From an uncultured Lachnospiraceae bacterium (lineage in GTDB: Bacteria; Bacillota; Clostridia; Lachnospirales; Lachnospiraceae), in assembly GCA_947626745.1 (NCBI GenBank), contig CANQTF010000002.1, positions 62,001 through 126,000 of the forward strand: 64,000 nucleotides of DNA. The letters run 5' to 3'. The notes under the pieces are model-generated. The model searched no databases. It was given only the letters and a program-made list of their open reading frames with translations, and was not told where the DNA came from. The position numbers and the translations under genes were made by a program. This document shows, in pieces, positions 39,348-55,885 of this stretch (within the stretch, counting starts at the first letter, position 1; each line of letters begins with the position of its first letter).

Positions 39348-39490
39348 TAATATTTTGGGGTAAGCGGCTTTGACTAATGAGTGGATATGTGGATACATAG
39401 TTACGATGTAATGCCCAATATTAGTTTTCCAACCAAATTTTTGACTATATTAAATGAAACGGGAGTTTGAATATTAGGAGGAGAAAAGCG

Positions 39491-39928
39491 ATGTGTTCTA
39501 AAATTTATTTTTGGGGGACAGGCAGATTAGCTGGAAAAGTTATTGGAAAGTATATTGCAATCGAAGCGATTGAAGCGTTTATTGATAATGATACATCAAA
39601 GCAAGAGTATATGGAGAAGCCGGTGATTACACCGGTAGCATTGACTACACGAGAATACGATGCCATTCTGGTGGCAACATTGTATCGGAAACAGATTTAT
39701 GAGCAATGTATTGCGCTTGACATTGATGTAAATAAAGTCATATTCTTATATGCTAACTTTGAGCTTGTGGATGTCAATAAAAATTATGCTCTGGCTGAGC
39801 GGGTACTTGGGAAAGAATATGTTCAAACTATAAAAAACAGATATCATGTTATCAGAGGCGTAGAGGCATTTGATAAACCGTTCGAATACTGTGAGGGCTG
39901 CTCGCAAGGGGGGGTATCAACACAGTGA
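39491..39928 (+). CDS. N-terminal Rossmann-like module of a methyltransferase gene (phase OFF)
   Basis: 145 aa as read. It begins KIYFWGTGRLAGKVIGKY, with AFIDNDTSK about 25 residues later: the small GxG...IDN module repeated through this locus. AGGAGGAG at 39476-39483 precedes the ATG at 39491. After a run of seven G (39908-39914) the frame ends at 39928, four codons past the tract. If the tract had six or nine G the frame would run straight into the TylF-type methyltransferase domain that follows (to 40493). As sequenced, only the module is made. Confidence 0.8.
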   Translation: MCSKIYFWGTGRLAGKVIGKYIAIEAIEAFIDNDTSKQEYMEKPVITPVALTTREYDAILVATLYRKQIYEQCIALDIDVNKVIFLYANFELVDVNKNYALAERVLGKEYVQTIKNRYHVIRGVEAFDKPFEYCEGCSQGGVSTQ

Positions 39929-40493
39929 TTATGTACGGACGGAGAGTTTTGAACTGGTTGTAAAAGAAATTTATAAAAAAGGGATAAAGGGCAATACGGC
40001 AGAACTTGGTGTATTCAGAGGCGAGTTTGCACAATATATTAATGCGGCATTTCCAGACCGTAAGTGTTATTTGTTTGACACCTTTGATGGTTTTGATGCC
40101 AATGAGGCATTACGTGAACTGAAAAGCGGGAACTGCACGGATGCGTTTGTACAGGCATATAAACAAACAAACCTTGTTGCGGTAATGAAACGTATGCGTT
40201 ATTTGGACAATATTGTCATTAAACAGGGATATTTTCCGAAATCATTGGAAGGACTGGAAGAAACATTTTGTTTTGTATCATTAGATGTGGATTTTGAAGA
40301 TTCGATTTATGAAGGATTGAAATACTTTTATCCGCGTATGGAACAGGGGGGATATATCTTTGTACATGATTATAATAGCGATTTGCGCGGTGTAGAGAAA
40401 GCAGTGGACAGATATGAGGTGGATATTGGGAAAGCGCTGTATAGGATGCCACTCTGTGATGCGAATGGAACATTAGTTATTATAAAGGGATAA
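39870..40493 (+). CDS. TylF/MycF-type methyltransferase domain, out of frame with its N-terminus
   Basis: The frame is open from 39870, but homology starts right after the poly-G tract (39915): SDYVRTESFELVVKEIY, NTAELGVFRGEFAQYI (the SAM-binding AELGV-x-G motif), CYLFDTFDGFD, FCFVSLDVDFED and YIFVHDYNSD. This matches macrocin-O-methyltransferase-like enzymes, which methylate sugar hydroxyls. The domain has no ribosome site of its own; an in-frame TTG (39870) exists but is implausible. It should be the second half of the gene starting at 39491. The stop is 2 bases before the LicD gene. Confidence 0.8.
   Translation: MINRSNTVRAARKGGYQHSDYVRTESFELVVKEIYKKGIKGNTAELGVFRGEFAQYINAAFPDRKCYLFDTFDGFDANEALRELKSGNCTDAFVQAYKQTNLVAVMKRMRYLDNIVIKQGYFPKSLEGLEETFCFVSLDVDFEDSIYEGLKYFYPRMEQGGYIFVHDYNSDLRGVEKAVDRYEVDIGKALYRMPLCDANGTLVIIKG
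39908..39914. repeat. Poly-G tract (G7) at a domain junction, frame OFF
   Basis: Seven G between the Rossmann-like module and the methyltransferase domain. The upstream frame needs six or nine G to stay open, so this allele is OFF. The tract lies exactly at the linker, so a slip switches the enzyme domain while leaving the module. Confidence 0.85.
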
Positions 40494-40495
40494 AA

Positions 40496-41302
40496 ATGAT
40501 ACAACTGGATGAAAAAACGTTACGGCAAGTACAACTGATACAGCTTGAAATGCTTGTCGAGGTTGACAGGATATGCAGAAAATGCGGGATACGATATAAC
40601 ATTATAGCGGGGACATTGCTTGGCGCTGTTCGTCACGGCGGATATATACCGTGGGATGACGATGCGGATGTAGCGTTGCTTAGACCTGAATATGAGAAAT
40701 TCCGAAAGGCGTGCAGGAAGGAACTGGATAAAAGCAGATTTTTATTTCAAGATCACAGGAACACAAAGGGGTATCGTTGGGGATATGGAAAGCTTCGCAG
40801 AAAAGGCACACTTTTTATGCGGGAACATCAGGAGCATATGCCATACATGCAAGGGGTATTTATTGATATTTTTCCACTTGATAATGTGCCTGATAATTAT
40901 ATGACGAGAAGTCTGCAGAATCTTGAATGTTTTTGTGTGCGCAAGATCCTGTGGGCGAGAGTAGGAAAAATTGCGGAGGATAACTTCTGGAGAAGGCAGA
41001 TATACAAGCTCTTAGACAAGATACCGGAAAAGGCTGTTTTTGCATATTATCATAAGATGATATGCAGAGCAAACAGGAAACAGACAAGAATGGTAAGGAT
41101 ATTGACATTTCCGACGCCGAACAATGAGTATGGGTATTATCGGTGTTGGTATGAAAACAGCACAGATACGGTATTTGAAGGCAGGATATTTCAGGGAATC
41201 AAGGATTATGACAGCTATTTAAGTTTTAAATTTGGAAATTATATGGAATTGCCGCCGGTCGAGAAGAGAAAAATACATCCGGTGAGCAGACTGCAGCTGT
41301 AA
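40496..41302 (+). CDS. LicD family phosphotransferase
   Basis: 268 aa. The LicD/fukutin nucleotidyltransferase-fold signature is clear: GIRYNIIAGTLLGAVRHGGY and IPWDDDADVALLR (the metal-binding Asp residues), then GVFIDIFPLDNVP. LicD proteins move phosphocholine or other phospho-alcohols from a CDP donor to glycans. With the cytidylyltransferases nearby, it probably decorates the polymer with such a group. It starts 2 bases after the preceding methyltransferase frame. Confidence 0.92.
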   Translation: MIQLDEKTLRQVQLIQLEMLVEVDRICRKCGIRYNIIAGTLLGAVRHGGYIPWDDDADVALLRPEYEKFRKACRKELDKSRFLFQDHRNTKGYRWGYGKLRRKGTLFMREHQEHMPYMQGVFIDIFPLDNVPDNYMTRSLQNLECFCVRKILWARVGKIAEDNFWRRQIYKLLDKIPEKAVFAYYHKMICRANRKQTRMVRILTFPTPNNEYGYYRCWYENSTDTVFEGRIFQGIKDYDSYLSFKFGNYMELPPVEKRKIHPVSRLQL

Positions 41303-41337
41303 GAGCTGCAAAGAGAAAAGCACCTTGATAAGTTCAT

Positions 41338-41351
41338 ACTTTATATCAGGA
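41338..41351. repeat. 14-bp inverted repeat, left copy
   Basis: ACTTTATATCAGGA, the exact reverse complement of 42617-42630. The pair flanks the Rpn nuclease gene and about 240 bases of non-coding DNA before it, so it may mark the ends of a small mobile unit. Confidence 0.55.
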
Positions 41352-41584
41352 ATCAAATGATTTTTGCGCCATAAACCGCTTGTAATTCATATGCGTATCT
41401 GCTATAGTGTTACTATCGGTAGCGGTCTTGCTGCCGGAAATCTTTTGGCACATGGATAGTTCTCATATTCGAGAGCAGATATCCCAACGAAAGAAACAGA
41501 CAACAGTATAGCAGAGCGTGGGATGGATTTTGTTTCTTCCTGACAGGATGAAGGTATCTTTCCTATGCGGAAAGAGAGGAAGGA

Positions 41585-42505
41585 TTGACACAAAAGAAAC
41601 GAAAAACCATTGTAAAAACCCCGGAGGCAGAATATAATAAAAGCAGACAGGGAAGCGCGGAACCGAAACCGTTCGAGGAGTTGACGCTGGCAGACCGCTT
41701 CATCTTCTACAAGGTGATGCGGGATAAGGAACTGTGTAAGCGGCTTCTGGAGATCATCCTGCATGTGGAGATCGAGCGCATCGAGTATCCGGAGGGTGAG
41801 AAGACCATCGAGGTCAAGAACGATGCCAAGGGTATCCGACTGGATATCTATGTGAAGGATGAGGAAGCAACGATCTACAATGTGGAGATGCAGACGGTAC
41901 ACACGGCGAACCTGCCCCAGAGGAGCCGGTATTATCAGAATCTGATCGATGTGAACCTGCTCGGTCGGGGTGAGGATTACCGAACGCTCAATCGGAGCTT
42001 TGTGATTTTCATTTGTATGGAGGATATCTTCCGCAAAGGCAGACACATCTATACCTTTGAGAATCGGTGCAGGGAGGATACAGATCTTGTGCTTGGCGAC
42101 GGAACGGTAAAGCTCTTCCTGAATCCCTGTTCTGAGATGAATGACGTTACGCCGGAGCTTAAGAACTTCCTGACGTATCTGGCGGAAAGAATAACGGCGG
42201 ATGAGTATACGAGAAAGGTGGAGGAAGCAGTGGAGACAGCGAAGAGAGACCCGAGACTGAGGGTGGAATATATGTCGTACTACGCGGATCAGGCAGATCA
42301 TAGAGCGGAACTTGAGGAAAGCCATGCGAAAGGGTTTGAAGAGGGAAGAGAAGAAAGTAGAGAAGAAGGGCTTTTGGCTCTTGTGGAAACTTTGAAGCCG
42401 ATACTTCCGGATTTCGAGGCGGTATACGCCGCCGTTATTAAGAATGAGGTGTATGCCGGATGCAGCCGCGAGGAAATCATGAAATATTATGAGAGTGCAG
42501 TGTAG
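41585..42505 (+). CDS. Rpn family PD-(D/E)XK nuclease / putative transposase
   Basis: 306 aa. The Rpn layout: LTLADRFIFYKVMRDKELCK at the start, then the nuclease core GIRLDIYVKDEEATIYNVEM with the D...ExQ-type active site, and a charged C-terminal helix (SHAKGFEEGREESREEG). Rpn proteins are DNA endonucleases that raise recombination and often appear as scattered mobile genes. The TTG start at 41585 follows GAGGAAGG-like bases and the protein opens MTQKKRKTIV. The gene is GC-richer than the A+T-rich glycan genes around it, a sign of separate arrival. A cargo or locus-shuffling role is possible. Confidence 0.85.
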   Translation: MTQKKRKTIVKTPEAEYNKSRQGSAEPKPFEELTLADRFIFYKVMRDKELCKRLLEIILHVEIERIEYPEGEKTIEVKNDAKGIRLDIYVKDEEATIYNVEMQTVHTANLPQRSRYYQNLIDVNLLGRGEDYRTLNRSFVIFICMEDIFRKGRHIYTFENRCREDTDLVLGDGTVKLFLNPCSEMNDVTPELKNFLTYLAERITADEYTRKVEEAVETAKRDPRLRVEYMSYYADQADHRAELEESHAKGFEEGREESREEGLLALVETLKPILPDFEAVYAAVIKNEVYAGCSREEIMKYYESAV

Positions 42506-42612
42506 GACTCTCTGAATTGAAAAGCAGTGCAGAGGCTGGAATGATTTGATGAGTAATCGACCGTAGATAATGGCGGTTGGGAAAATGCAAGCAGCTAGAT
42601 ATAGAATTTTTG

Positions 42613-42662
42613 AAACTCCTGATATAAAGTGTGGAATCGGCTTTATATGGGGAGTTTTGTTG
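42613..42662 (+). terminator. Long hairpin, possible terminator after the Rpn gene
   Basis: Arms 42613-42629 and 42641-42657 pair over 17 positions with two mismatches (AAACTCC...ATATAAAG), 11-base loop, followed by TTTTG. The left arm includes the right copy of the 14-bp inverted repeat that also occurs at 41338-41351. Confidence 0.5.
42617..42630. repeat. 14-bp inverted repeat, right copy
   Basis: TCCTGATATAAAGT, exact reverse complement of 41338-41351. It also forms part of the hairpin at 42613-42657, so it may have a structural rather than a mobile role. Confidence 0.55.
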
Positions 42663-42761
42663 TGATGTTATGATTTGGAGAGTACAATATAAAAAAGCAG
42701 AAAAAATGATGATGAAAATTAATGCTGTGAATAGGTATTTGACCAGATTGGAGTGTGTACG

Positions 42762-43751
42762 ATGAAAGAGACACGCTGTAACCCAAAGATATCGGTTATT
42801 GTGCCAATCTATAATGCTGACCGTTATCTTGAAAAGTGTATAGGAAGTATTATAAATCAAACATATAAGAATCTGGAAATTATTTTAATTGATGACGGTT
42901 CGACGGATCAGTCAAGTGAAATCGCCGAGTTATATGCACAAGAGGATTCAAGAATTATTTTGAAACGGCAAGTCAATGGCGGTGAGAGTGCGGCGCGTAA
43001 CAGTGGTTTAAAATTAGCGACAGGAGAGTACATTGCTTTTGCAGATTGTGATGACTGGATAGAGCCTGATATGTATGAGAGTCTTGTGCGAGAAGCGGTA
43101 AAAGAAAGAGCAGATATTGTTATCAGTGGCTGGTACAAGGATACAGAGTATCAAAGCAACAAAATAAGAAATGAAAAAAAAGTAAGAGAAAAAGTTTTTT
43201 CTGGAGAAACATTGCTGAGGTATCTGTATGAGCGAGATTCATACCGTGAGTTTGCGTACATGTGGGACAAGCTGTATAAAAGAGAATTGTTTTATGATGA
43301 AGACGGTGAAATGATACTGTTTGATATGGATTTAAAACTTGGCGGAGATGTACTTTGCCTTGGTAGAGTTGCTTTGAGAGTTAAAAGGGCTGTATATGTA
43401 GATGAGGCATTTTATCATTATGTACAAAGAAAAGAATCAGGCTGTCATACAGAAGATATAAGTCGACGGCTGGACTGGTTACAGGCCTATATTCGGCTTA
43501 TAGCGATATTTTATGAAAAAAGGATAAACGAAGAAATCATTGATTTGTTAAAGCGTTTTTTAGTATACCACAGTGCTGTGGTAGCAGATATGGCATATAA
43601 TCAGAAAGATCAGGCAGCATTGCTTTATTGCAAAGAGATCATTGTAAAATACAGGCAGGAATATGAAAGATTAAATATGGAAAAGCCTGAGAGAATTGAA
43701 TGGTTGAGCAAAATATTGGGATATAAACTAAAAGAGGGGATAGATATATGA
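42762..43751 (+). CDS. Glycosyltransferase family 2
   Basis: 329 aa GT-A enzyme. KISVIVPIYNADRYLEKCIG and IILIDDGSTDQSSEI form the nucleotide-binding start, and AFADCDDWIEPDMYESLV holds the DxD metal site. It transfers a sugar from an NDP donor to the growing glycan at the inner membrane face. ATG 42762 follows GGAG by 8 bases; a GTG at 42753 is in frame but lacks a site. One of the few proteins here without the Rossmann-like module. Its stop overlaps the next start (ATGA). Confidence 0.92.
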   Translation: MKETRCNPKISVIVPIYNADRYLEKCIGSIINQTYKNLEIILIDDGSTDQSSEIAELYAQEDSRIILKRQVNGGESAARNSGLKLATGEYIAFADCDDWIEPDMYESLVREAVKERADIVISGWYKDTEYQSNKIRNEKKVREKVFSGETLLRYLYERDSYREFAYMWDKLYKRELFYDEDGEMILFDMDLKLGGDVLCLGRVALRVKRAVYVDEAFYHYVQRKESGCHTEDISRRLDWLQAYIRLIAIFYEKRINEEIIDLLKRFLVYHSAVVADMAYNQKDQAALLYCKEIIVKYRQEYERLNMEKPERIEWLSKILGYKLKEGIDI

Positions 43752-44908
43752 AGTGGAAAAATCGCGGACATGAATATGATGAAATGTATTGCAATATAGA
43801 ACAGAAAAATATCTTTTATCTATTTGGAGCGGGCGATTATGGCAAGCAATTTTATCAAATATTCAAAGATGAGATCAATATAGCCGGCTATATAGACAAT
43901 AATAGTGAAAAGCAAGGAAGATTAATGGAGGGTAAGCCGTGTTGCGCATTAAATAAAATAAATGTCAGCCGGGATGTTGGGATTATTGTTACGATGTCCC
44001 AAATCGCCAGAGTAATGCCGATAGAACAACTGAAAACAGCAGGATATAAATATGGAGAAAATTTCTTCTTGATTGAAGAGTTTTTGTCTGTATATTACTT
44101 GTATAAGTATAGTAAAGTTTATTTTTCGAGTATTTCATTTTTGCCAAGCACGGCATGTAATTTAAACTGTAGGAACTGTTTGAACTTTAATCCTTTTGCA
44201 AAGCAGTTTTATGTAAGAGAGTGGAATGATTTAAAGAAAGATGTTGATTTATTTTTCTCCTGTGTAGATCGTATTATGCTGTTCCATGTGAGTGGGGGAG
44301 AACCAATGCTGTATAAGCATATAGCGGATTTGATAGAGTATATCAGCAAGAATTATGGAGATCGAATCGATACTCTGCGAACGGTAACTAACGGAACGGT
44401 TGTGCCTGAAGATGAAGTGTTGGAAAAACTTTCTCAAAGCGGAATTGAAATTACCGTGGATGACTATAGAGAGAGCGTACCATATTTTGATGAAAAATTT
44501 GATGAGTTGATTCGGAAATTAGAAGCGTATCATATCAAGTATTATATTAATAAGGCAGATAGCTGGATCGACTTGGCACCTGAAAGGACGGATTACTCAG
44601 GACTGTCCGATGAACAGTTGGAAAGACATAGAACAGACTGCAATCAATCATGGCAGGAGCTGCGAAACGGAAAGCTGTATAGTTGCAATTACGCCGCATA
44701 TGCTACGGTAGCGGGGATCGGGGGAGGAAAACAGGATGTAGAAGAAGCGTATGACTTGAGAGAATATACTCCAGAAAAGGCAAAAGAGTTGGTGGAGTTC
44801 AGATTAGGATATACGACAAAAGGATATACAGAATTTTGTAAAAAGTGTAGAGGTTTTACTGCTGAAAATCGTTTATATATAAAACCGGCTGAACAAATGA
44901 AATCATAA
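43748..44908 (+). CDS. Radical SAM protein with N-terminal Rossmann-like module
   Basis: 386 aa. Residues about 20-115 are the recurring module (NIFYLFGAGDYGKQFYQI, GYIDNNSEKQG). The radical SAM domain starts near residue 130 with TACNLNCRNC, cysteines at about 137, 141 and 144 (CX3CX2C for the 4Fe-4S cluster), then FHVSGGEPMLY (the GGE SAM motif) and TVTNGTVV. A Cys pair near the end (FCKKCRGF) and CNQSWQ/CNYAAY may bind a second cluster in a SPASM/twitch-like way. It could carry out a radical dehydration, epimerisation or similar change on a sugar or carrier. Starts inside the stop of the GT2 gene, so it is coupled to it. Confidence 0.88.
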   Translation: MKWKNRGHEYDEMYCNIEQKNIFYLFGAGDYGKQFYQIFKDEINIAGYIDNNSEKQGRLMEGKPCCALNKINVSRDVGIIVTMSQIARVMPIEQLKTAGYKYGENFFLIEEFLSVYYLYKYSKVYFSSISFLPSTACNLNCRNCLNFNPFAKQFYVREWNDLKKDVDLFFSCVDRIMLFHVSGGEPMLYKHIADLIEYISKNYGDRIDTLRTVTNGTVVPEDEVLEKLSQSGIEITVDDYRESVPYFDEKFDELIRKLEAYHIKYYINKADSWIDLAPERTDYSGLSDEQLERHRTDCNQSWQELRNGKLYSCNYAAYATVAGIGGGKQDVEEAYDLREYTPEKAKELVEFRLGYTTKGYTEFCKKCRGFTAENRLYIKPAEQMKS

Positions 44909-44957
44909 AAAAGCGCAGATTTGAAAATAAAGATATTAGACTAATGAGGTGATAATT

Positions 44958-46040
44958 TTGTCGGAAGAACGAATTAATTTTCCATATGTGGACGATATGA
45001 AAAATGATAGCATCAACCTTAAGAGTATAAGAACGATCTATGAAAAAATGGCAGATGATATTTCAAAAGACATTTATGTGTCCAGATTGTTATTAAGTTT
45101 AACGGGTAATCAAACGTATATGAAGAAAGCACTGAGTTATACGAAGGGGGGGGGCAAATTAATAGATATTGTTGATTCGAATCAAAACCGTACATACATT
45201 TATGGAGCGGGTATTCGGGGGAAAAGAATTGCAGAAACTTTTCCGGATTGTAAATGGGGCGGTTTTATTGACCAAAATAGTAAGGACAGTTCTTATCGCG
45301 ATATTCGCATTTTTAGTTTAAAAGAATTCTTAACACGGTATCGTTCGGGCGATATTGTCATTGTATCAAATATGCTTGATACAGAAAAAATTGTATCAGA
45401 CTTGTGCAGTAAGATGGACAAAAAGAATATATATATTTTAAATGATTTAGACAAAGAAAGCATGCAGGATATTTATTTTTCAATTGATGAAATAAGGCGG
45501 GGCATTCATGAGGATAGTATTTTTGTTGATGTAGGGTGTTTTGATGGAAAGGATGCTTTGAAATATCTTGAATGGATTGGAAATAAAAACGCGACGGTAT
45601 TTGCTTTTGAACCAGATGAGGATAATTATAAAGTTTGTGAAAATAATTTGCGAAAATATACTAATATAAGATTATGGAATGTTGGGTTAGATGATAAAGA
45701 GGAGCATGTGGGCATTAGCGGGAGTGGGGAAATGGCTCATTTTGAAAAGGAGGGGGATAAATATGTGAAGACACGTATTTTGGATAATATTGTAGTCGAT
45801 GAACAGATTGGATATATAAAAATGGACGTAGAAGGATTTGAAGAGCATGTTTTGCGTGGGGCTGAGCGTATTATTAAAATACAACATCCCGCACTTGCCA
45901 TATCTGTTTATCATAAAATATCGGATGTTTGGAAACTGCCAAATCTTATATTAGAATTATATGGCGGCTATCGCTTTTATATGAGGCATTATAGTGCAAC
46001 GAACAGTGATACTGTGTTATATGCAATTGCAAGTGATTGA
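44958..46040 (+). CDS. FkbM family methyltransferase with Rossmann-like module and in-frame poly-G
   Basis: 360 aa from TTG 44958 (AGGTG 7-8 bases upstream; GTG 44949 is the alternative). Codons for Gly-Gly-Gly near residue 65 lie in nine G (45146-45154). The module follows (TYIYGAGIRGKRIAE, GGFIDQNSKD). The C-terminal half is FkbM: DSIFVDVGCFDGKDALKYL, TVFAFEPDEDNYKVCENNL, GYIKMDVEGFEEHVLRGAER and PALAISVYHK. FkbM enzymes O-methylate sugars or polyketides. As sequenced the tract is in frame, so the gene is ON; a one-base slip would remove both module and enzyme. Confidence 0.88.
   Translation: MSEERINFPYVDDMKNDSINLKSIRTIYEKMADDISKDIYVSRLLLSLTGNQTYMKKALSYTKGGGKLIDIVDSNQNRTYIYGAGIRGKRIAETFPDCKWGGFIDQNSKDSSYRDIRIFSLKEFLTRYRSGDIVIVSNMLDTEKIVSDLCSKMDKKNIYILNDLDKESMQDIYFSIDEIRRGIHEDSIFVDVGCFDGKDALKYLEWIGNKNATVFAFEPDEDNYKVCENNLRKYTNIRLWNVGLDDKEEHVGISGSGEMAHFEKEGDKYVKTRILDNIVVDEQIGYIKMDVEGFEEHVLRGAERIIKIQHPALAISVYHKISDVWKLPNLILELYGGYRFYMRHYSATNSDTVLYAIASD
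45146..45154. repeat. Poly-G tract (G9), frame ON
   Basis: Nine G in the FkbM methyltransferase gene, read as part of Lys-Gly-Gly-Gly-Lys. In frame in this sequence. Same length as the tracts at 8153, 49347 and 52232. Confidence 0.85.
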
Positions 46041-46054
46041 GAGGTAATAATTGA

Positions 46055-47203
46055 ATGAAGAAAGTTGTCATTTGGGGAGCGGGTGAATGGGGAAAACTGG
46101 CATATCATTATTATTGTAACAATTGTGAAATTGTCAATTATGTAGATAATGATATTAATGTATGGAACACTGAGATTCATGGAATTTCGGTATGTTCTCC
46201 GGATATTTTGAAAAAACAGAAATATACGGTAATTATTGCTTGCAAATGGTATGAAGAAGAGATAAAAAAACAACTGGTAGAATCATACGGTATTGATGAA
46301 GTAATCAGTTTTCGGATTGTTGAAAAAATGCAGAAAATACCAATAGGTGCGAACAGTGATATCGGAGAAAATGAGGTGATAGTTTCTTTTTGCGATGGAT
46401 TGGGAAATCAAATGTTCCAGTATGCTTTATATAGAATTTTTCAGAAGCAGAAAAAAAATGTAACAGCAGATTTGTCTGCATATTTAAGACCGGATATGAG
46501 ACCGTTTATATTGCCAAAGGTATTTGAAAACATTGCATTACATGAATGTACACCTGAAAAAAAGGAATTGTATTTATCGCAGGGAAAAGTGTATATTGAT
46601 GAACCGCCAAAAGATGAGATAAAACAGACATTTAATCCAAATTTAATAGATTTTAATTATGGCTATATTGAAGGATGGCATTGTTCGTATCGATATCCTC
46701 AAATAGTGAGAGACGAATTGTTATATGATTTTCAGTTTCAACATATAAAAGATGAAAAACTTCGAGAGTTAGCAGAATTACTTGAACATGAAGAGTTTGT
46801 AGGAGTACAGGTTAGGAGAGGAGATTTCCTGATACCTAAATATAAAAGAGAATTAGGGGTTATTTGTGACGGTAATTATTATAAAAAGGCGTTTCAGTAT
46901 ATAAAGCGTATGGCTCCGAGAGCGGCTTTTTGCTTTTTTTCGGATGATATAGAATGGGTAAAAAATAACATGGAGGAAGAGAATGCTATATATATCGAGG
47001 TGCAAATGTTTGACACGTATTTTGATTGGTATGATATGTATTTAATGAGTTTGTGCAAGTATAATATAATTCCTAACAGTACGTTTGGCTGGTGGGGAGC
47101 GTGGCTGAATCGCAATCCAAATAAAATAGTAATAGCGCCAAAAAAATGGAGAGAAAACTGGAAAGCAAGTGACTGGTGCCCTCCGGAATGGATTAGATTA
47201 TAA
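46055..47203 (+). CDS. Family 11 (alpha-1,2-fucosyltransferase-like) glycosyltransferase with N-terminal Rossmann-like module
   Basis: 382 aa. Residues 1-95 are the module (KVVIWGAGEWGKLAYHYY, VNYVDNDINVW). The GT11 enzyme follows: SFCDGLGNQMFQYALYRI (GxGNQxFQYA motif), EEFVGVQVRRGDFL (the HxRRxD-like donor motif, here QVRRGD), FFSDDIEWVK and IPNSTFGWWGAWLN. GT11 enzymes add fucose or a related 6-deoxy sugar in alpha-1,2 linkage from GDP-sugar. No GDP-fucose genes are in view. Starts 14 bases after the FkbM gene. Confidence 0.92.
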   Translation: MKKVVIWGAGEWGKLAYHYYCNNCEIVNYVDNDINVWNTEIHGISVCSPDILKKQKYTVIIACKWYEEEIKKQLVESYGIDEVISFRIVEKMQKIPIGANSDIGENEVIVSFCDGLGNQMFQYALYRIFQKQKKNVTADLSAYLRPDMRPFILPKVFENIALHECTPEKKELYLSQGKVYIDEPPKDEIKQTFNPNLIDFNYGYIEGWHCSYRYPQIVRDELLYDFQFQHIKDEKLRELAELLEHEEFVGVQVRRGDFLIPKYKRELGVICDGNYYKKAFQYIKRMAPRAAFCFFSDDIEWVKNNMEEENAIYIEVQMFDTYFDWYDMYLMSLCKYNIIPNSTFGWWGAWLNRNPNKIVIAPKKWRENWKASDWCPPEWIRL

Positions 47204-47217
47204 GGAGTAAATGCAAA

Positions 47218-48267
47218 GTGTATCAAATATTAATTTGGGGAACGGGAACAATTGCGAGACATTTTTTAAAAAATGGCATTAATGGGTGTGTGATGGGGTT
47301 TGTGGAAACACACAAAACCGTGGATTCATATATGGATCTGCCTTTATATGGCATAGATGAGTTGCCGGACGGATACGATTATATTGTTGTGGCAAATGTG
47401 CATACTAATGAAATATATCGGACATGCCTTCAAAAAGGAATTGATTTGGAGAAAGTCATTTTTCTGAGAGGGGTAAAGAGCAACGTAGGGTTTCAGGATC
47501 TGACGGTAATTCATGATATTTTGGGTGAAAAAAATTATACCAATTACTGTGCAGAATACAGCTTGATGGAGGCTTCTTTTTTTCAAAAGGATAAGGAACG
47601 GTATGAGGCGTTAAACACGAGAGAGCACTTTCAAATTGAAGAGCACTTTATGTGGCCTATTATAAAGGATAAATATGACAGTGCAGGCACAGCGAATAAT
47701 TATTTTTGGCAGGATCTGTGGGCAGCGAAACTGATTCATCAGAGTGGGGTTAAAACCCATTTTGATATTGGTTCCAGAGTAGATGGATTCATAGCACATT
47801 TGTTGGCTATGGATATTGAAGTGACTCTGATTGATATCAGAGAATTTCCGGCGGAAGTTGAGCATTTACATACGTTGGTAGACGACGCGACAAGTTTGCG
47901 GCAGGTGGAAGACGGGAGCATTGACAGTCTGTCTGCGCTTTGTTCTTTGGAGCATTTTGGTCTTGGGCGTTACGGCGACCCGATAGATCCTGAGGCATGC
48001 TTTAAATGCTTTGCGGAAATACAGAAAAAAATAAAGGAGGAGGGTCATCTGTATATAGCAGTTCCGATAGGTAAAGAGCGGGTCGAATTTAACGCACATA
48101 GAGTCTTTTATGCGGAAACGATCATAAGGGAGTTTGACCGAATGAAACTATTAGAGTATTCCTGTACGGCTGATGGGAAAATGGAATACGATGTTGATAT
48201 TCATAAATACGATGAGGACAAGCATAACGGAAATTATCGATATGGATTGTTTCATTTTATAAAATAG
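47218..48267 (+). CDS. DUF268-like protein with N-terminal Rossmann-like module
   Basis: 349 aa. The module occupies about 1-95 (QILIWGTGTIARHFL, GFVETHKTVD). From about 165 the protein resembles the DUF268/SAM-methyltransferase-like group: THFDIGSRVDGFIAHLLA, VTLIDIREFP, SLSALCSLEHFGLGRYGDP and LYIAVPIGKERVEFN. This group is common in glycan loci and has no proven reaction. GTG start with AAGGAG upstream. The module is close to that of the 39491 gene, including the stretch after it (VIFL... then the ILGEKNY/VLGKEY-like segment). Confidence 0.78.
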   Translation: MYQILIWGTGTIARHFLKNGINGCVMGFVETHKTVDSYMDLPLYGIDELPDGYDYIVVANVHTNEIYRTCLQKGIDLEKVIFLRGVKSNVGFQDLTVIHDILGEKNYTNYCAEYSLMEASFFQKDKERYEALNTREHFQIEEHFMWPIIKDKYDSAGTANNYFWQDLWAAKLIHQSGVKTHFDIGSRVDGFIAHLLAMDIEVTLIDIREFPAEVEHLHTLVDDATSLRQVEDGSIDSLSALCSLEHFGLGRYGDPIDPEACFKCFAEIQKKIKEEGHLYIAVPIGKERVEFNAHRVFYAETIIREFDRMKLLEYSCTADGKMEYDVDIHKYDEDKHNGNYRYGLFHFIK

Positions 48268-48328
48268 TTATTTTTTAGGATTATTAGAGATACAGTTTTG
48301 CTGAGTTAATGTATGGGAGGAGTTAAGT

Positions 48329-49261
48329 GTGAAACAATTTATTATCTATGGAGTAGGCAGCTGTGGAAGAAAATGTTTTGAGTTTCTTGAATGGAAAGGA
48401 ATAGAAGACATTTATATCAGTGCATTTTGTGACAAAAAGTACAATAAAATAAGAGAAGTTTATAGCAGAAGATGCATATCGTATTCTGAGGCGATAAGTT
48501 TGAATATCCCCTTTTTGATTGCTTTGGTTGATGAAAAATCAGGCAATGAAGTTTTACATATGATAGAAAGTGATGGTGGGGAAGGATATTTATATAGTGA
48601 TTTTTATAAAATACTGGGCTGGGAGCAGCATGTATATTATAGAGAATATTGTGCATTTATTCATGCAAAATACAATGATAAATGGTTTGATGATGCTGAA
48701 CAAAAGGAAGCAGTCGATATATTTTGGAGTGATAATTCAAAGTTTTACCAGCATTTTAAACGATTAGACTTGAGTAATGTAATCGAACTTGCCTGTGGAC
48801 ATGGAAGACATGTGCCATATTATATAGACTCAGCTGAAAAGGTTACATTGGTAGATATATTGGAAGAAAATATGGAGATTTGCAGAGAGAGATTTAAGGA
48901 TTATGACAAAATAGAATATTACCAAAACAATGGCTACAATCTGGAGAGGCTTCCTGATGATAATTATACAGCATTATTTACATATGACTCTATGGTTCAT
49001 TTTGAGTTAATGGATATTTATGAATACTTGAAAGATATTTATAGAGTATTGTTAGAGGGAGGATATGCACTTTTTCATCATTCTAACTATGCATCTGATT
49101 ATAAAACTAATTTTACCAATTCACCTCATGCGAGATGTTTTATGAGTAAAGATATTTTTGCGTATCTGGCATATAGGACAGGCTTTAAAGTAGTTGATCA
49201 AAGTGTTATAGATTGGTATGGAACAAAAGGATTAGATTGTATTACTCTATTGAAGAAATAG
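48329..49261 (+). CDS. Class I SAM methyltransferase with N-terminal Rossmann-like module
   Basis: 310 aa. Module at 1-95 (FIIYGVGSCGRKCFEFLE, SAFCDKKYNK). SAM domain from about 145: VIELACGHGRHVPYYI (motif I), VTLVDILEENMEICRERF (motif II), LFTYDSMVHFE and GGYALFHHSNYASD. Substrate unknown but probably a sugar or glycan end group. GTG start behind GGAGGAG. The next gene begins about 106 bases later, after the poly-G at 49347. Confidence 0.85.
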   Translation: MKQFIIYGVGSCGRKCFEFLEWKGIEDIYISAFCDKKYNKIREVYSRRCISYSEAISLNIPFLIALVDEKSGNEVLHMIESDGGEGYLYSDFYKILGWEQHVYYREYCAFIHAKYNDKWFDDAEQKEAVDIFWSDNSKFYQHFKRLDLSNVIELACGHGRHVPYYIDSAEKVTLVDILEENMEICRERFKDYDKIEYYQNNGYNLERLPDDNYTALFTYDSMVHFELMDIYEYLKDIYRVLLEGGYALFHHSNYASDYKTNFTNSPHARCFMSKDIFAYLAYRTGFKVVDQSVIDWYGTKGLDCITLLKK

Positions 49262-49346
49262 TGCTGTTAATGGAAAACTGCAAAGTGACTATAAGAATTA
49301 AGTTTGTGGTTGTTATGCCTATAGAATATATATTTTCCTCAAAACA

Positions 49347-49355
49347 GGGGGGGGG
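49347..49355. repeat. Poly-G tract (G9) fused to a Shine-Dalgarno sequence
   Basis: Nine G followed by AGG, so that the last two G form the GGAGG ribosome site (49354-49358) nine bases before the ATG at 49368. A slip would not move the site from the start codon but would change the G-rich leader, its folding and the spacing to any promoter. With ten or seven G, an upstream ATG at 49315 would come into frame and add 18 residues, but it has no visible ribosome site. Confidence 0.8.
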
Positions 49356-49367
49356 AGGCATAGAAAT

Positions 49368-50624
49368 ATGGAACATATATTATGGCTAAGCTGTATTGTA
49401 TTGCCGGATTATGCACAGGAATTCGGGATTAGCCGGAATAGCCGTGCGGGCTGGATCAGCGGTATGCTGGCAGAACTGGATAGGAAAAAAGACTTTCAAA
49501 TTGATTTGTGTTTCCCAATCTATGACAGTTTCCGCATGAAAGATGGGAAGTGTAATGGGCACAGATATTATACATTTCATTGTAAAAGCATAGAAACCTA
49601 TGATGAAGAAATGATTGAGGAATTGGAACACATTTTAGAGTCTAGCAACCCAGATCTTGTACATATTTGGGGAGTAGAATTTTCTTTTGCAGCAGCGATG
49701 CTGCATGCCTGTCATCGTAAGGGATTGTTAAATCATGCTGTCGCCAGTATACAGGGGCTGACGTCAAATTATGTAAGACATTTTTATGCTGATATACCGG
49801 AAAAATATAGAAATATGCAGTGTGCCAATGCAAGAACAATAGAGCAGGATTGTGCGGCATATGAACGTCGCGGCCGATGTGAAATAGAGGCTATAGGCAT
49901 GTTACGGCATATTATGGGAAGAACAGATTGGGATCAAGCTATTGCGTTGGCGATTAATCCCGATATTCATTATTATTTCTGTGATGAGATTTTGCGGCCT
50001 GTTTTTTATGAAAATGCAGGGCGATGGAACTATGGAAGATGTCAGAAATATCGTATTTTTTTAAGTCAGGCCGGATATTCTGTTAAGGGTTTTCACTACT
50101 TACTGCAAGCGTTGCCTGTTGTGCTTAAAAAGTATCCTAATACGCATGTGTATGTGGCGGGGAAAAATATTATAGATACAGAAGAAAAAATACCATATGC
50201 ATGTTACTTGAATGAATTACTTGATGAAAACAATCTACGGGAACATGTTATTTTTATTGGAAACCAGGATGCGGAACAGATGATAACTCAATATCTTCAG
50301 GCAAATGTGTTTGTTTCGGCTTCAAGTATTGAAAATTCTTGTAATTCACTTAATGAAGCTATGCTGATAGGAGTCCCATCTATTGCATCTTATGTAGGAG
50401 GCACAAATAATAGATTGACTACGGAGATAGAAGGTTTTTTATACCCGCATGACGAACCAGTTTTGTTGGCATTCTATATTTGCAAAATATTTCAAAATGA
50501 AAATCAGCTGTGTGACCATCTTTCTGTTAATGCTGTTAGAAAAATGTCGAGCCTTATTGATCGGGAAGTAAATGTGAACAGAATGCGGGAGATATATAAG
50601 AAAATTATAGCGGATATAATATAA
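49368..50624 (+). CDS. Family 4 (GT-B) glycosyltransferase
   Basis: 418 aa. The N-terminus HILWLSCIVLPDYAQEFG is the usual GT4 start. The C-terminal domain has RIFLSQAGYSVKGFHYLLQA (K-G acceptor/donor segment), NTHVYVAGKNI, HVIFIGNQDAEQM and VFVSASSIENSCNSLNEAMLIGVPS (the Ex7E-like donor site, here with an S-I-E-N start). It adds a sugar with retention of configuration. No Rossmann-like module. Its expression may vary because of the poly-G leader. Confidence 0.9.
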   Translation: MEHILWLSCIVLPDYAQEFGISRNSRAGWISGMLAELDRKKDFQIDLCFPIYDSFRMKDGKCNGHRYYTFHCKSIETYDEEMIEELEHILESSNPDLVHIWGVEFSFAAAMLHACHRKGLLNHAVASIQGLTSNYVRHFYADIPEKYRNMQCANARTIEQDCAAYERRGRCEIEAIGMLRHIMGRTDWDQAIALAINPDIHYYFCDEILRPVFYENAGRWNYGRCQKYRIFLSQAGYSVKGFHYLLQALPVVLKKYPNTHVYVAGKNIIDTEEKIPYACYLNELLDENNLREHVIFIGNQDAEQMITQYLQANVFVSASSIENSCNSLNEAMLIGVPSIASYVGGTNNRLTTEIEGFLYPHDEPVLLAFYICKIFQNENQLCDHLSVNAVRKMSSLIDREVNVNRMREIYKKIIADII

Positions 50625-50677
50625 GAATGTAGTAGAAGAAAGCAGATGGAGATTATCTGAAAAGGAAATTAGGAAGA

Positions 50678-51898
50678 ATGAAGATTGGAACCGTATTATT
50701 CACGTGGCATAGAAGTGAGCATACACAAAAAGTGTTAGATGCTTTGGAACATAATACCGTAATGCCAGATAGATTATATATATTTCAAGACGGAATAAGC
50801 GAACGGACAAATTGTGAAGAATGGCATAAGGTTAATCGGATGATTCAAGATGTCGATTTTTGCAATACTACAGTAATTGTTTCAGATGTTAATAAAGGGT
50901 GTCGCAATTCAATTGTATCAGGCTTGAATTTGGTTTTGTCGGAATGTGATGCAGCGATTGTCTTGGAAGATGACTGCGTGCCGGAAAGTCAGTTTATCAA
51001 TTTTATGACAACAGCACTCGAAGCTTATCAAAACAGTGATAAAGTTTATTCGGTTAGCGGATATGCATGGGATGTTGTGTTGCAAGGTCAAGAGGATGAT
51101 GCATATTTTAATGGTAGAAGTTGTTCGTGGGGGTGGGGTACTTGGAAGGATAAATGGGCGGCTTATGAAGAAAATTATAATATTGTAAATGAGATTAAGG
51201 CGGATCCTATTGCAGTGGAACGACTGCGTATATGGGGAAATGATTTAGAAGAGATGTTGGCGGGGAATATACATGGAACTTGCGATGCATGGGATGTTTT
51301 TTGGGGTTTAAATATCATTAAAAGAAGTGGCTACTGCCTGAGCCCATATAAAACTTTAGTTCGAAATATAGGGTTTGATGGTTCCGGACTGCATTGCGGT
51401 TCAAGTGAATATTTTCAAGATTTGATTCAGACGCAGAAAACGGAAAATAAGGATAATTTTAAATTTCCTATGAGAATAGAGACTACAAAAGAATGCGAAG
51501 AGGAATTTCGCTTTCTATATGGCGGAAAGAGAGGAAAAGAAAAAGAAAGATATTACCGCAATTTGTTTGCCCGTTGGATTCAAATGAAACAGGCGGGAAA
51601 ACAGATAAAATTTTTAGATGAATGGAATGGCAGGGTGGCTGTTTGGGGTAAAAATGATGTATTTGACTTGTTGCTGGGAGAGTATGACGTGCTGCAAGAG
51701 CATGTTGCCTGTATTATGGAAAGTCGTCCCCGAGATTTAACATATAAGAATATACCTATTGTTACGCTGGACAAACTCCCAAACAACATTAAAAACATAA
51801 TTGTAATACCGTTTTTTGATATAGATGTCATTGCACCGAGAGTACATAAGATCAGGCCAGACATTAAACTGTGGGGAATTGACGAGTTGATTGGTTAA
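50678..51898 (+). CDS. GT-A glycosyltransferase with degenerate C-terminal Rossmann-like module
   Basis: 406 aa. TVLFTWHRSEHTQKVLDALE opens the GT-A fold; AAIVLEDDCVPESQFINFM holds the DxD-type EDDC motif, and RSCSWGWGTWKDKWAAYE is the acceptor-side motif of this glycosyltransferase group. Residues about 318-406 resemble the locus module but with a weaker glycine motif (GRVAVWGKNDVFDLLL, CIMESRPRD). ATG start; 53 bases separate it from the previous gene. Confidence 0.82.
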   Translation: MKIGTVLFTWHRSEHTQKVLDALEHNTVMPDRLYIFQDGISERTNCEEWHKVNRMIQDVDFCNTTVIVSDVNKGCRNSIVSGLNLVLSECDAAIVLEDDCVPESQFINFMTTALEAYQNSDKVYSVSGYAWDVVLQGQEDDAYFNGRSCSWGWGTWKDKWAAYEENYNIVNEIKADPIAVERLRIWGNDLEEMLAGNIHGTCDAWDVFWGLNIIKRSGYCLSPYKTLVRNIGFDGSGLHCGSSEYFQDLIQTQKTENKDNFKFPMRIETTKECEEEFRFLYGGKRGKEKERYYRNLFARWIQMKQAGKQIKFLDEWNGRVAVWGKNDVFDLLLGEYDVLQEHVACIMESRPRDLTYKNIPIVTLDKLPNNIKNIIVIPFFDIDVIAPRVHKIRPDIKLWGIDELIG

Positions 51899-51916
51899 AC
51901 AGAGAGGAGATTGTAG

Positions 51917-52411
51917 ATGTATTGTAATAATGATGTTGACTATTTGCATTTCTTGCAGGACAAACAAGTATATATTTTTGGCGCTGGTATCGTTGGAAGA
52001 CGGTTGTGCGCAGGCATAGAAAAGGCTGGTTGCAATGTGGCAGCTTTTATTGATAACAAAAAAAGTGGTACTTATTGTGACAAACCTGTCATAAGACTGG
52101 AGCAATACCAAGAACGGACTGAGGAGAATGCCTTTATTGTAATAAGCAGCAATAAGTATGAAAGCACAATCAAAATGCAGTTGTTGAATCAGAAGATATA
52201 TAATTTTATCTCTGTCTCTCAGATTGATTTCGGGGGGGGGAAAATTATTATGACGAAGCATATTTTGCCTTCCAAAAACCGCTTGGCGAGTTTGGTGGGA
52301 AGGTATCCGCCAGATTATTTTCACAGTATGTTGCGGAAGATGATGTGCTGGTGGAGTTTGGCTCGGGCGGAGGCTATCTGCTTAGAGAACTGCGAGCAAA
52401 AGAAAAAGTAG
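51917..52411 (+). CDS. N-terminal Rossmann-like module of a methyltransferase gene (phase OFF)
   Basis: 164 aa as read, of which the first about 107 are meaningful: KQVYIFGAGIVGRRLCAGIE, AAFIDNKKSG, then IVISSNKYESTIKMQLL. After the nine G (52232-52240) the frame becomes nonsense (KIIMTKHILPSKN...) to a stop at 52411. With ten or seven G, it would continue into YYDEAYFAFQKPLGEFGGK and the methyltransferase. GAGAGGAG precedes the ATG. Confidence 0.8.
   Translation: MYCNNDVDYLHFLQDKQVYIFGAGIVGRRLCAGIEKAGCNVAAFIDNKKSGTYCDKPVIRLEQYQERTEENAFIVISSNKYESTIKMQLLNQKIYNFISVSQIDFGGGKIIMTKHILPSKNRLASLVGRYPPDYFHSMLRKMMCWWSLARAEAICLENCEQKKK
52232..52240. repeat. Poly-G tract (G9) at a domain junction, frame OFF
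   Basis: Nine G between module and methyltransferase. The upstream frame needs ten or seven G to reach the downstream one, so this allele is OFF by one base. Confidence 0.87.
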
Positions 52412-52869
52412 GGATAGAGATTAATGATTTTGCACGTCAAAATGCAGAAATGCTGGGGGTTTCAAGTGTAAAACATATTTGTGATATACCGTGCGAGTAT
52501 GCAGATACAATTATATCTACAAATGTTTTGGAACATGTTGAAAATCCGTTGGGAATCTTGCGGGATTTACACCACAGATTAAAAGAAGGTGGCAAGGCAG
52601 TGTTCGTGGTGCCGAATGAATCTTGCGAAACAGAGTATACAAGAAGTGAAATTAATAATCATTTATATACATGGAATTGTCTAAATATTGGAAATCTTTT
52701 TAAAGCGGCAGGATATTTTGTACATAGTGTCAGCCGGATTCAGGAAGTATGGCCATCTAATTATATAAAAATCGCAGAAGAAGTATCTCCAACTATGTTT
52801 GATCTGCTGGCGGAATTGGGCGGTGCTGCATGTAATGAAAGCAGATGTCTGATCGTTGCTTATAAGTAG
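52240..52869 (+). CDS. Class I SAM methyltransferase domain, out of frame with its N-terminus
   Basis: The frame is open from the last G of the tract. It reads ENYYDEAYFAFQKPLGEFGG, then VLVEFGSGGGYLLREL (SAM motif I), VGIEINDFARQNAEMLG, TIISTNVLEHVENPLG and KEGGKAVFVVPNE. A GTG at 52345 lies inside the SAM site, so no useful product can begin there. It is the second half of the gene starting at 51917. This class of methyltransferase often accompanies sugar modification. It ends 40 bases before the WbsX-type gene. Confidence 0.8.
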   Translation, partial: ENYYDEAYFAFQKPLGEFGGKVSARLFSQYVAEDDVLVEFGSGGGYLLRELRAKEKVGIEINDFARQNAEMLGVSSVKHICDIPCEYADTIISTNVLEHVENPLGILRDLHHRLKEGGKAVFVVPNESCETEYTRSEINNHLYTWNCLNIGNLFKAAGYFVHSVSRIQEVWPSNYIKIAEEVSPTMFDLLAELGGAACNESRCLIVAYK

Positions 52870-52909: not shown

Positions 52910-54463
52910 ATGAAAGTTATTACGATGTATCTGCCTCAATTTCACCGTGTGAAAGAAAATGACGAATGGTGGGGAGAGGATTTCACGGAATGGACGGCGG
53001 TAAAAGGAGCAGAACCTCTTTTTGAAGGACATGATCAGCCACGTGTACCGCTACATGAGAATTACTATGACTTGTTGGATAAACGGACTATGCAATGGCA
53101 GACAGATCTGATGAAACAATATGGGATAGATGGACAATGCATTTACCATTATTGGTTCAAAGACGGACGGAAAATATTAGAAAAGCCGGCGGAGAATTTG
53201 CTGCAATGGAAAGATATAGATATGCCATTTTGTTTCTGTTGGGCGAATGAATCATGGGCACGCACATGGAGTAAATTAAGACCTGCTAATGTTTGGATGG
53301 TAACAGATAATAAAAAGGAAAATGATGAACAAAAAGCGGCTAAGGCTGAACTCTTGATAGAGCAGGCCTATGGTGATGAAAAACAATGGCGACTTCACTT
53401 TGACTATTTACTTCCGTTTTTTAAGGATGACAGATATATTCGAATAGAAAACAAACCTGTTTTTGTCATATATCAATCGGCGCAGATATCATGTTTGGGA
53501 GAAATGATAGATTGTTGGAACAGATGGAGCCGAGAAGCGGGAATGGAGGGAATATATATAATCGGAGCAAACAGTGATGTCAGAAGCAATCGTTGGCTAG
53601 ATGGTTTGCTGCAGCATGAACCACAGTTTTCTATTAGACAAGTTGCAAACTGCAAATGGGGCGACTTGGTGAAAACAGATTATGATAGAATATGGAAAGC
53701 ATTGTTGGAACGATATTCATATGTACCCACAACTTTTTATGGTGGGTTTGTTGGATATGACAGTACGCCTAGATGTGGTGACAAGGGAATCATAATAGAA
53801 AATGATAATCCCATAAAGTTTAGAAATTATTTGTCTGAATTATTGGCCAAGAATGCGACAAGCGGTAGGAATATAGTCTTTGTAAATGCATGGAATGAAT
53901 GGGGAGAAGGCATGTATCTGGAACCAGATAAAAAATATGAATATGGATATTTGGAAGCTGTTCCCTACGCAAAAGAGCATTACAAAGAATATATGACTAA
54001 ATATAAAAAAGATACTGAAAAAGAGAATCAATATTTAAAAAGGGAATTAGAAATCATTGCTGAAAAGACCATGCGTTATCAGGAATACTGGGAAATTATG
54101 GACGCATGGATGACACTGAAAGAAAATGATATACCAATTATAGATTTTTTTCGCATAAACCATATAAAATCCATTAATATATATGGCATTGGTATGTTGG
54201 GTCAACATTTGATAAAAGAACTGGAAAATCAAGATATAGAAATTGTTGGACTTATTGACCGTAATGCACAAAGAGCTGCTAAGTTAATAAGGGCAGGAGT
54301 TTATTTGCCGGAAGACCAATTACCTGAAAGCGATATGATTGTAGTCACGGTGGATTATGCATATGAAGATATTAGAAGGCAACTTCATGAGAAAGGGTAT
54401 AGAAATATTATATCTTTAAGGCAAGTTATTGAAAAATTAGGTGAAAAACTTTGTGATATGTAA
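52910..54463 (+). CDS. WbsX-type glycosyltransferase (GH99-like) with C-terminal Rossmann-like module
   Basis: 517 aa. The WbsX/GH99-like barrel is plain: ITMYLPQFHRVKENDEWWGE, FTEWTAVKGAEPLFEGH, YHYWFKDGRKILEKP, FCFCWANESWARTW and NAWNEWGEGMYLEPD. Proteins of this family are found in O-antigen and rhamnan loci. A helical linker (about 350-410) leads to the module (SINIYGIGMLGQHLIKELE, VGLIDRNAQ). It may cut or transfer a mannose-like sugar; the activity is not established for most members. Confidence 0.9.
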   Translation: MKVITMYLPQFHRVKENDEWWGEDFTEWTAVKGAEPLFEGHDQPRVPLHENYYDLLDKRTMQWQTDLMKQYGIDGQCIYHYWFKDGRKILEKPAENLLQWKDIDMPFCFCWANESWARTWSKLRPANVWMVTDNKKENDEQKAAKAELLIEQAYGDEKQWRLHFDYLLPFFKDDRYIRIENKPVFVIYQSAQISCLGEMIDCWNRWSREAGMEGIYIIGANSDVRSNRWLDGLLQHEPQFSIRQVANCKWGDLVKTDYDRIWKALLERYSYVPTTFYGGFVGYDSTPRCGDKGIIIENDNPIKFRNYLSELLAKNATSGRNIVFVNAWNEWGEGMYLEPDKKYEYGYLEAVPYAKEHYKEYMTKYKKDTEKENQYLKRELEIIAEKTMRYQEYWEIMDAWMTLKENDIPIIDFFRINHIKSINIYGIGMLGQHLIKELENQDIEIVGLIDRNAQRAAKLIRAGVYLPEDQLPESDMIVVTVDYAYEDIRRQLHEKGYRNIISLRQVIEKLGEKLCDM

Positions 54464-54539
54464 TGGTACAGTATTTTTTAGGGTAGGCTAATGATAGGAA
54501 TAACTAGATCAGATAGATTATACAGAAGGCGATACCATC

Positions 54540-55769: not shown

Positions 55770-55885
55770 ATTATATAAGTGTGGAGGAATATTGTAATAT
55801 ATGTAACGATTAGTAATAATGGTTATATATTAGATTTATTTGATTATACAGATCAAAGAAAGAGTAAGAAGAAAAGGTAGCGCTT

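Follow-up and report, generated by a model that had tools for sequence, protein, structure and literature searches.

The systems closest to the one described here are poly-G switches known from other phyla and from one gut commensal. Campylobacter jejuni NCTC11168 carries 29 loci with G or C runs of at least 7 (PMC4965091), and its runs gain bases more often than they lose them up to a length of 9, while loss exceeds gain from 10 onwards (PMC8224891). The porA gene of Neisseria meningitidis has a G run between its -35 and -10 boxes, and a poly-G run upstream of tprL, a putative surface gene of Treponema pallidum, affects transcription (both PMC7864442). The nearest example from the gut is Bifidobacterium breve, a Gram-positive commensal in which G-run slippage was measured by deep sequencing; there it concerns two sortase-pilus clusters (with G11 and G12 as the main lengths in bbr_0113), and pilus clusters from further species are described as well (PMC9187656). 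Here we report on the poly-G runs of an uncultured Lachnospiraceae bacterium, probably of gut origin as judged by the names of its relatives, starting from a stretch of 64,000 nucleotides, hereafter the window (assembly GCA_947626745.1, contig CANQTF010000002.1, positions 62,001 to 126,000), which holds a surface-glycan locus. The Lachnospiraceae count as one of the main bacterial groups of the gut. For this family, poly-G phase variation was not the subject of any paper found among the full-text matches listed, most subscription papers lying outside the scope of that search, and a term search of the available text of one review (PMC11868660) gave no occurrence of poly-G. In M. gnavus, capsule promoters were reported not to be bimodal, so that any phase variation there would be of very low frequency (PMC13121745); capsule switching is therefore not universal among the Lachnospiraceae.

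The draft genome that contains the window measures 2.69 Mb, is divided into 49 contigs and is estimated to be 83.5% complete. A first-pass annotation had listed five runs of at least seven G in it, at 8153, 39908, 45146, 49347 and 52232, and no others, and our run scan returned exactly these (Table 1); no C run longer than 5 was found in the window. The five had been read as two ON, two OFF and one at a ribosome site, in agreement with the reading frames: the frame stays open across the runs at 8153 and 45146, it changes at those at 39908 and 52232, and the run at 49347 precedes an ATG. The A+T-rich surroundings were also recovered, the G+C content of the glycan region being 0.378 compared to 0.488 at 1-38500. 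The statement that such runs should be rare in this setting holds for the four G9 runs, while the lone G7 is not exceptional by itself. For each order from 2 to 4, 60 sequences were generated by a Markov model trained on the window. In these, runs of at least 9 (G or C) had a mean of 0.03-0.17 against the 4 seen, which places the G9 runs beyond chance, whereas runs of at least 7 had a mean of 1.6-2.7 and a maximum of 7 against the 5 seen, which leaves the G7 within it.

The original observation was right yet understated, as the five window runs are part of a set of 51 G runs of at least 7 in the whole draft genome (one of length 7, four of 8, 45 of 9, one of 10 and none longer). In 365 kb of sequence from this genome, made up of the window and stretches picked around runs, G and C runs numbered 1074 at length 4, 146 at 5, 2 at 6, 1 at 7, 4 at 8, 45 at 9 and 1 at 10. 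This bimodal distribution with its sharp mode at 9, taken together with the Markov models, rules out that the G9 runs are simply the upper end of a chance distribution; the lone G7 may still belong to such a tail. Runs of length 6 were nearly absent (2 compared to 146 of length 5, G and C pooled), as if slippage-prone short runs had been purged. Each of the 46 runs located beyond the window is carried by the G-rich strand at its locus. When 196 genomes of the class were sampled, 108 proved to lack any G run of at least 9, and the present genome came out on top with 46, followed by one with 23. Congeneric genomes may exceed it, as in the case of G069, which has 87 runs of at least G9 (81 of G9 and 6 longer, beside 8 of G8).

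A recurrent regulatory form of these runs is a promoter spacer, a form that the first-pass annotation had not noticed. Eight runs of the present genome lie between a perfect TTGACA and a -10 box, although none of this kind was found in the window. Using a pattern of a perfect TTGACA, a run of at least 7 G and TANNNT (promoters with an imperfect TTGACA are thus uncounted, and where several -10 boxes fitted, the better match to TATAAT was taken and then the spacer nearer to 17.5), we searched 77 congeneric genomes and obtained 109 matches, which fall at 89 places and in 37 of the genomes; the reversed pattern matched 4 times. A comparable role for C runs in promoters was ruled out, since poly-C gave 6 matches in 5 of the 77 genomes compared to 5 in the reversed control. 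The run touched the -10 box at 60 of the 89 places, and the spacer was 19 base pairs (bp) long at 47, 16 bp at 13, 17 bp at 9, 18 bp at 9 and of other lengths at 11; when places with similar flanks were merged, 19 bp was found in 30 of 53. None of the eight promoter runs of the present genome had a 17- or 18-bp spacer. For comparison, ordinary TTGACA-TANAAT pairs without a G run, taken from sequences that had been picked for G runs, had 17 bp in 7 of 14 cases and 19 bp in none, and with a looser -10 box 17 bp in 13 of 36 and 19 bp in 1. The total of 19 bp was reached by 30 of 49 G9 promoters and by 13 of 21 G10 promoters, the latter because their flank is shorter. Outside the genus, where at least 8 G and a perfect TTGACA were asked for, the promoter form appeared in 21 of 198 genomes of a family sample, while the reversed control gave 0 matches in 200 genomes.

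A likely downstream open reading frame (ORF) was sought at 30 of the promoter-form loci and found at 28. The Pfam scan of 20 such frames gave five BspA-like/DUF285 proteins, one RCC1-repeat protein, four ABC permeases, two solute-binding proteins, DUF6056, GH77 and a zinc-ribbon protein, and five frames had no Pfam hit. In the present genome one gene, encoding a DUF4854 lipoprotein, has a G9 in its promoter spacer and a second G9 directly after the lipobox cysteine codon (L031:4010 and L031:4186). Homologues of this gene came from 30 loci and were judged only where the sequence strand began with the gene; 3 of those judged had runs, and 12 more distant ones had no G run of at least 6 near the gene start.

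With regard to run length, counts were obtained from 42 of the 77 congeneric genomes, and the 38 with at least 20 tracts were analysed; G074, with 3, 12 and 6 tracts of length 8, 9 and 10 or more and a mode of 9, was not included. The modal length was 9 in 18 genomes, 10 in 12 (one tie; G075 is tied between 10 and 11 or more), 8 in 7 and at least 11 in 1. Run lengths thus differ strongly between genomes (chi-square 1318 with 111 degrees of freedom, the rows being related and not independent). In G004, which was read directly, 28 of 44 runs of at least 8 G were G10, and some of the others stood beside N gaps; the G runs touching N gaps there (9, 15 and 18 long, in L206 and L217) look like scaffold artefacts. 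For the present genome, the rates quoted for C. jejuni in PMC8224891 predict a G9 share of 43%, compared to the 88% found. The C. jejuni equilibrium was therefore ruled out as a full account of the sharp G9 peak in this genome (p about 2e-11, a rough test with published rates).

The 51 runs were also classed by position, each class being our own reading and several gene starts being uncertain (e.g. L039:8637 and L062:6971). Twenty lie in coding sequence that stays in frame, 11 in coding sequence that changes frame at the run and 8 in promoter spacers, the other 12 being leader, intergenic, antisense or unclear, so that about 31 coding and 8 promoter runs are placed where a change in length would alter frame or promoter. 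G9 accounted for all 20 in-frame runs, for 9 of the 11 with a frame change, for 7 of the 8 promoter spacers and for 9 of the remaining 12. As most out-of-frame and promoter runs are G9 as well, the reading frame does not set the length, and frame selection as the cause of G9 was ruled out. Among the less usual positions, the G9 at L055:3963 is antisense to the reading frame with the better score (C9 in the coding strand of that frame), and another G9 (L051:4021), as seen by eye, is flanked by the two arms of a G+C-rich inverted repeat and stands shortly ahead of two paired genes, one of them for a large glycosyltransferase; this latter run could affect transcription or RNA folding.

According to Pfam, the genes with a run or just behind one encode glycosyltransferases, Acyl_transf_3 and MBOAT acyltransferases, polysaccharide deacetylases, TylF, FkbM and other methyltransferases, and further CotH, two chemoreceptors, an EAL/GGDEF protein, a TadZ-like protein, a solute-binding protein, a protein kinase and DUF6056; a PGA_cap gene stands directly downstream of one tract gene. 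Tract genes with no obvious surface role encode an SDR, a KAS III and an AlkZ-related protein (run near the 3' end), and a Mur ligase gene, likewise not obviously of the surface, begins 196 bases after the start of one run. NCBIfam gave no match for 10 tract genes without a Pfam name (one with a sub-threshold hit). In a plain tally of the named families, many of the tract genes thus appear to be surface-related and some do not. The switched functions had been proposed to be methylation, glycosyl transfer and deacetylation; targets of this glycan type are indeed present, but a restriction to them does not hold, as chemoreceptors, a cyclic di-GMP gene, pilus assembly and lipoproteins are included, and in relatives sugar transporters.

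ON and OFF alleles were sought by protein search for the loci at 8153, 45146 and 52232. With the downstream piece of the 52232 gene as query we found P0226, an intact methyltransferase of 317 amino acids (aa). It is 100% identical to the window over all 208 aa downstream of the tract, has 1 difference in the 105 aa before the Gly-Gly-Gly, a part that was absent from the query, and reads through the tract in frame. P0226 is present on 4 contigs, the longest of 147446 bases, and the contig of the window (272894 bases) is another one. Judged by this identity, intact copies of the 52232 gene most likely exist in the same species. Two further database entries, P0228 (90% identity) and P0229 (87%), are 172 aa long and start where the downstream ORF of the window starts, as expected of an OFF allele or of a shortened gene call. 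Genes annotated as broken in these genomes may be OFF alleles. Relatives of the FkbM protein at 78-80% identity have Gly-Gly-Ser at the tract position.

For the deacetylase with the run at 8153, the best 80 of 235 relatives, representing 79 loci, were scanned, and 62 of these loci were placed in a tree together with the window (identity at least 38%, 250 residues covered). In 8 of the 62 other loci (9 of 63 rows with the window) a G9-G12 run was found at the codon of the 8153 run or no more than about 3 codons away. These 8 loci are L097, L144 and L156 in the Bacillota, of which L144 groups with Hungatella, L147 in Treponema, and L149, L150, L151 and L153 in the Gastranaerophilales; in L144 and L153 the deacetylase frame is split at the run. 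The run label changes 6 times on the tree, and 5 of the changes are forced by well supported branches. Runs were also seen elsewhere within the gene (L094 and L132) and about 50 bases before it (L112). The genomes behind L143 and L147 (Treponema), L149, L150, L151 and L153 (Gastranaerophilales) and L156 (a metagenome-assembled genome (MAG) of Eubacterium sp.) have 25 to 127 G runs of at least 8 each, and poly-G contingency may be common in several phyla. The proposal of phase variation by poly-G slippage is thus well supported by the intact copy of an OFF gene, the recurrence in the deacetylase family and the many surface-related targets, but its confinement to the glycan locus has to be given up, since the set is genome-wide.

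We consider it probable that the runs are slipped-strand contingency loci of one genome-wide set, and that the promoters among them rest at a presumably weak spacing. Replication slippage, which we infer to be the cause, would add or remove Gs, at a switching rate that is also inferred. In coding runs a change in length would turn the gene on or off by frame, and in promoter runs it would shift the distance from TTGACA to the -10 box. Through a balance between gains and losses, each run would come back to the length typical of the species (9 in the present genome, 8 or 10 in relatives) irrespective of its gene, and the promoter flanks would bring the spacer mostly to 19 (or 16) bp at this resting length. 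Such a spacer would presumably be weak or OFF, one or two slips away from the 17-18 bp optimum, as suggested by the porA precedent (optimum 17, PMC7864442) and by the ordinary promoters examined here. The benefit would lie in variation of the surface met by phage and host. A bolder version, which we regard as possible rather than probable, is that poly-G switches are kept at one species-specific resting length (8, 9 or 10), that promoter flanks have evolved to give a shared default-off state of mostly 19 (or 16) bp, out of which a gene would be opened by one or two slips, and that phase variation is tuned genome-wide by one replication or repair property of the species.

It should be underlined that several observations weigh against slipped-strand switching. 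An ON/OFF pair was obtained at one of the three loci searched (52232 OFF, P0226 ON), and that its two members come from one species is judged by sequence identity. A 99% identical database copy of the FkbM gene (45146) is also ON, and the deacetylase cluster P0001, one sequence on 7 contigs, is ON like the window copy. Several methyltransferase relatives keep Gly-Gly-Gly at the position of the 52232 tract, so part of this run may come from protein constraint. The run label is somewhat clustered on the deacetylase tree (3 of 500 shuffles as low), which points in part to inheritance or to transfer between lineages. The lone G7 at 39908, judged on length only, could be chance. Outside the genus the 19-bp peak is weaker (n=29: 19 bp in 7, 18 bp in 6, 20 bp in 5, 16 bp in 4 and 17 bp in 1). 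Finally, the lengths are unusually constant for hypermutable runs; in the DUF4854 gene, 5 of the 7 species read have a run behind the lipobox, in each case a G9, the remaining two having the promoter run only, and the promoter has G9 and a 19-bp spacer in all 7, which had been picked for matching the promoter pattern.

This last constancy, which persists despite differing flanks, would also be expected if the promoter runs, and only these, were fixed functional elements, in which a G run shortens or twists the spacer DNA so that 19 bp works like 17, and in which length is kept by selection. That a total of 19 bp is commonest for G9 and for G10 promoters alike, and that G, not C, is on the coding strand, also fits such elements. 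However, promoters with like flanks differ between species, G9 versus G10 or G10 versus G11 (G011/G012 versus G052/G054; G013/G018 versus G016), and the coding and out-of-frame runs of the same length are left unexplained, which makes this alternative unlikely in our view. Somewhat less likely again is a neutral mutational attractor, by which a G run that reaches about 8 would grow to the preferred length and stay where it is harmless, with no benefit from switching. The equal preferred length across classes, the few intergenic runs and the antisense run are consistent with it, but many of the tract genes that could be named serve the surface, sensing or uptake, the runs recur at one deacetylase codon across phyla, and the concentration of spacers at 19 and 16 bp points to selection. 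A sequencing or assembly artefact, with frameshifts from miscounted homopolymers, is conceivable for a draft in 49 contigs that is probably a MAG, given the artefact-like N-gap runs in another genome and a possible miscount at 52232 taken alone, but as an account of the set it is very improbable, since the lengths are bimodal with one sharp mode, the runs are conserved in several species and miscounting cannot make a promoter architecture.

The runs and genes of the window are listed in Table 1. The leader run at 49347-49355 ends 12 bases ahead of the ATG of a glycosyltransferase gene and, being 5' of the ribosome-site AGG, its length would not alter the AGG-ATG distance.

Table 1. Poly-G runs and genes of the 64-kb window (positions as in the window)
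Feature	Position	Strand	Basis or remark
Polysaccharide deacetylase gene (Polysacc_deac_1), ON	7991..8950	+	in frame through G9 at 8153-8161
G9 tract, coding, ON	8153..8161	+	run scan, chance model
Upstream reading frame, ends just after G7 tract	39467..39928	+	no Pfam hit
TylF-type O-methyltransferase, downstream part	39870..40493	+	profile match begins at profile position 75
G7 tract, frame shift at tract (OFF); only G7 of the genome	39908..39914	+	run scan
LicD-family gene of the glycan locus, without tract	40496..41302	+	Pfam
Glycan locus genes: GT2, radical SAM, FkbM (with tract), GT11, DUF268	42753..48267	+	Pfam
FkbM-type methyltransferase, ON	44949..46040	+	in frame through G9 at 45146
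G9 tract, coding, ON	45146..45154	+	run scan, chance model
G9 tract in leader, directly 5' of ribosome-site AGG of next gene	49347..49355	+	
Group 1 glycosyltransferase, 3' of leader tract	49368..50624	+	Pfam
Methyltransferase, upstream part, frame lost at tract	51917..52411	+	
G9 tract, coding, OFF in window	52232..52240	+	P0226 copy reads through in frame
Methyltransferase domain (Methyltransf_23), downstream part	52345..52869	+	Pfam
Glycan locus genes: WbsX, RgpF, GT1, GT2; without tract	52910..58598	+	Pfam

If slipped-strand switching of this set is true, one species can show very many surface types, with a bearing on phage resistance, immune recognition and strain tracking. A species-specific resting length would also make testable an old question, namely whether slippage balance or selection sets the length of contingency tracts.

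Compared to the known systems, the present set is like that of C. jejuni in that both have dozens of G or C runs of at least 7, and differs in its G9 share (88% versus 43% expected), in a preferred length that is specific to the species and in that at least 8 of the 51 runs are promoter spacers. With porA it shares the position of the run between the two promoter boxes; in contrast, porA is a single gene whose optimum is 17, whereas here many genes and species are involved and most assembled spacers measure 19 or 16 bp. The run of tprL overlaps the -10 region and leaves the spacing of the boxes unchanged (PMC7864442), and for Bifidobacterium the available text of PMC9187656 describes neither a genome-wide set nor the promoter form. 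What is unusual here, relative to the known switches of the Campylobacter and Neisseria type, is the combination of a near-fixed run length with a recurring promoter form.

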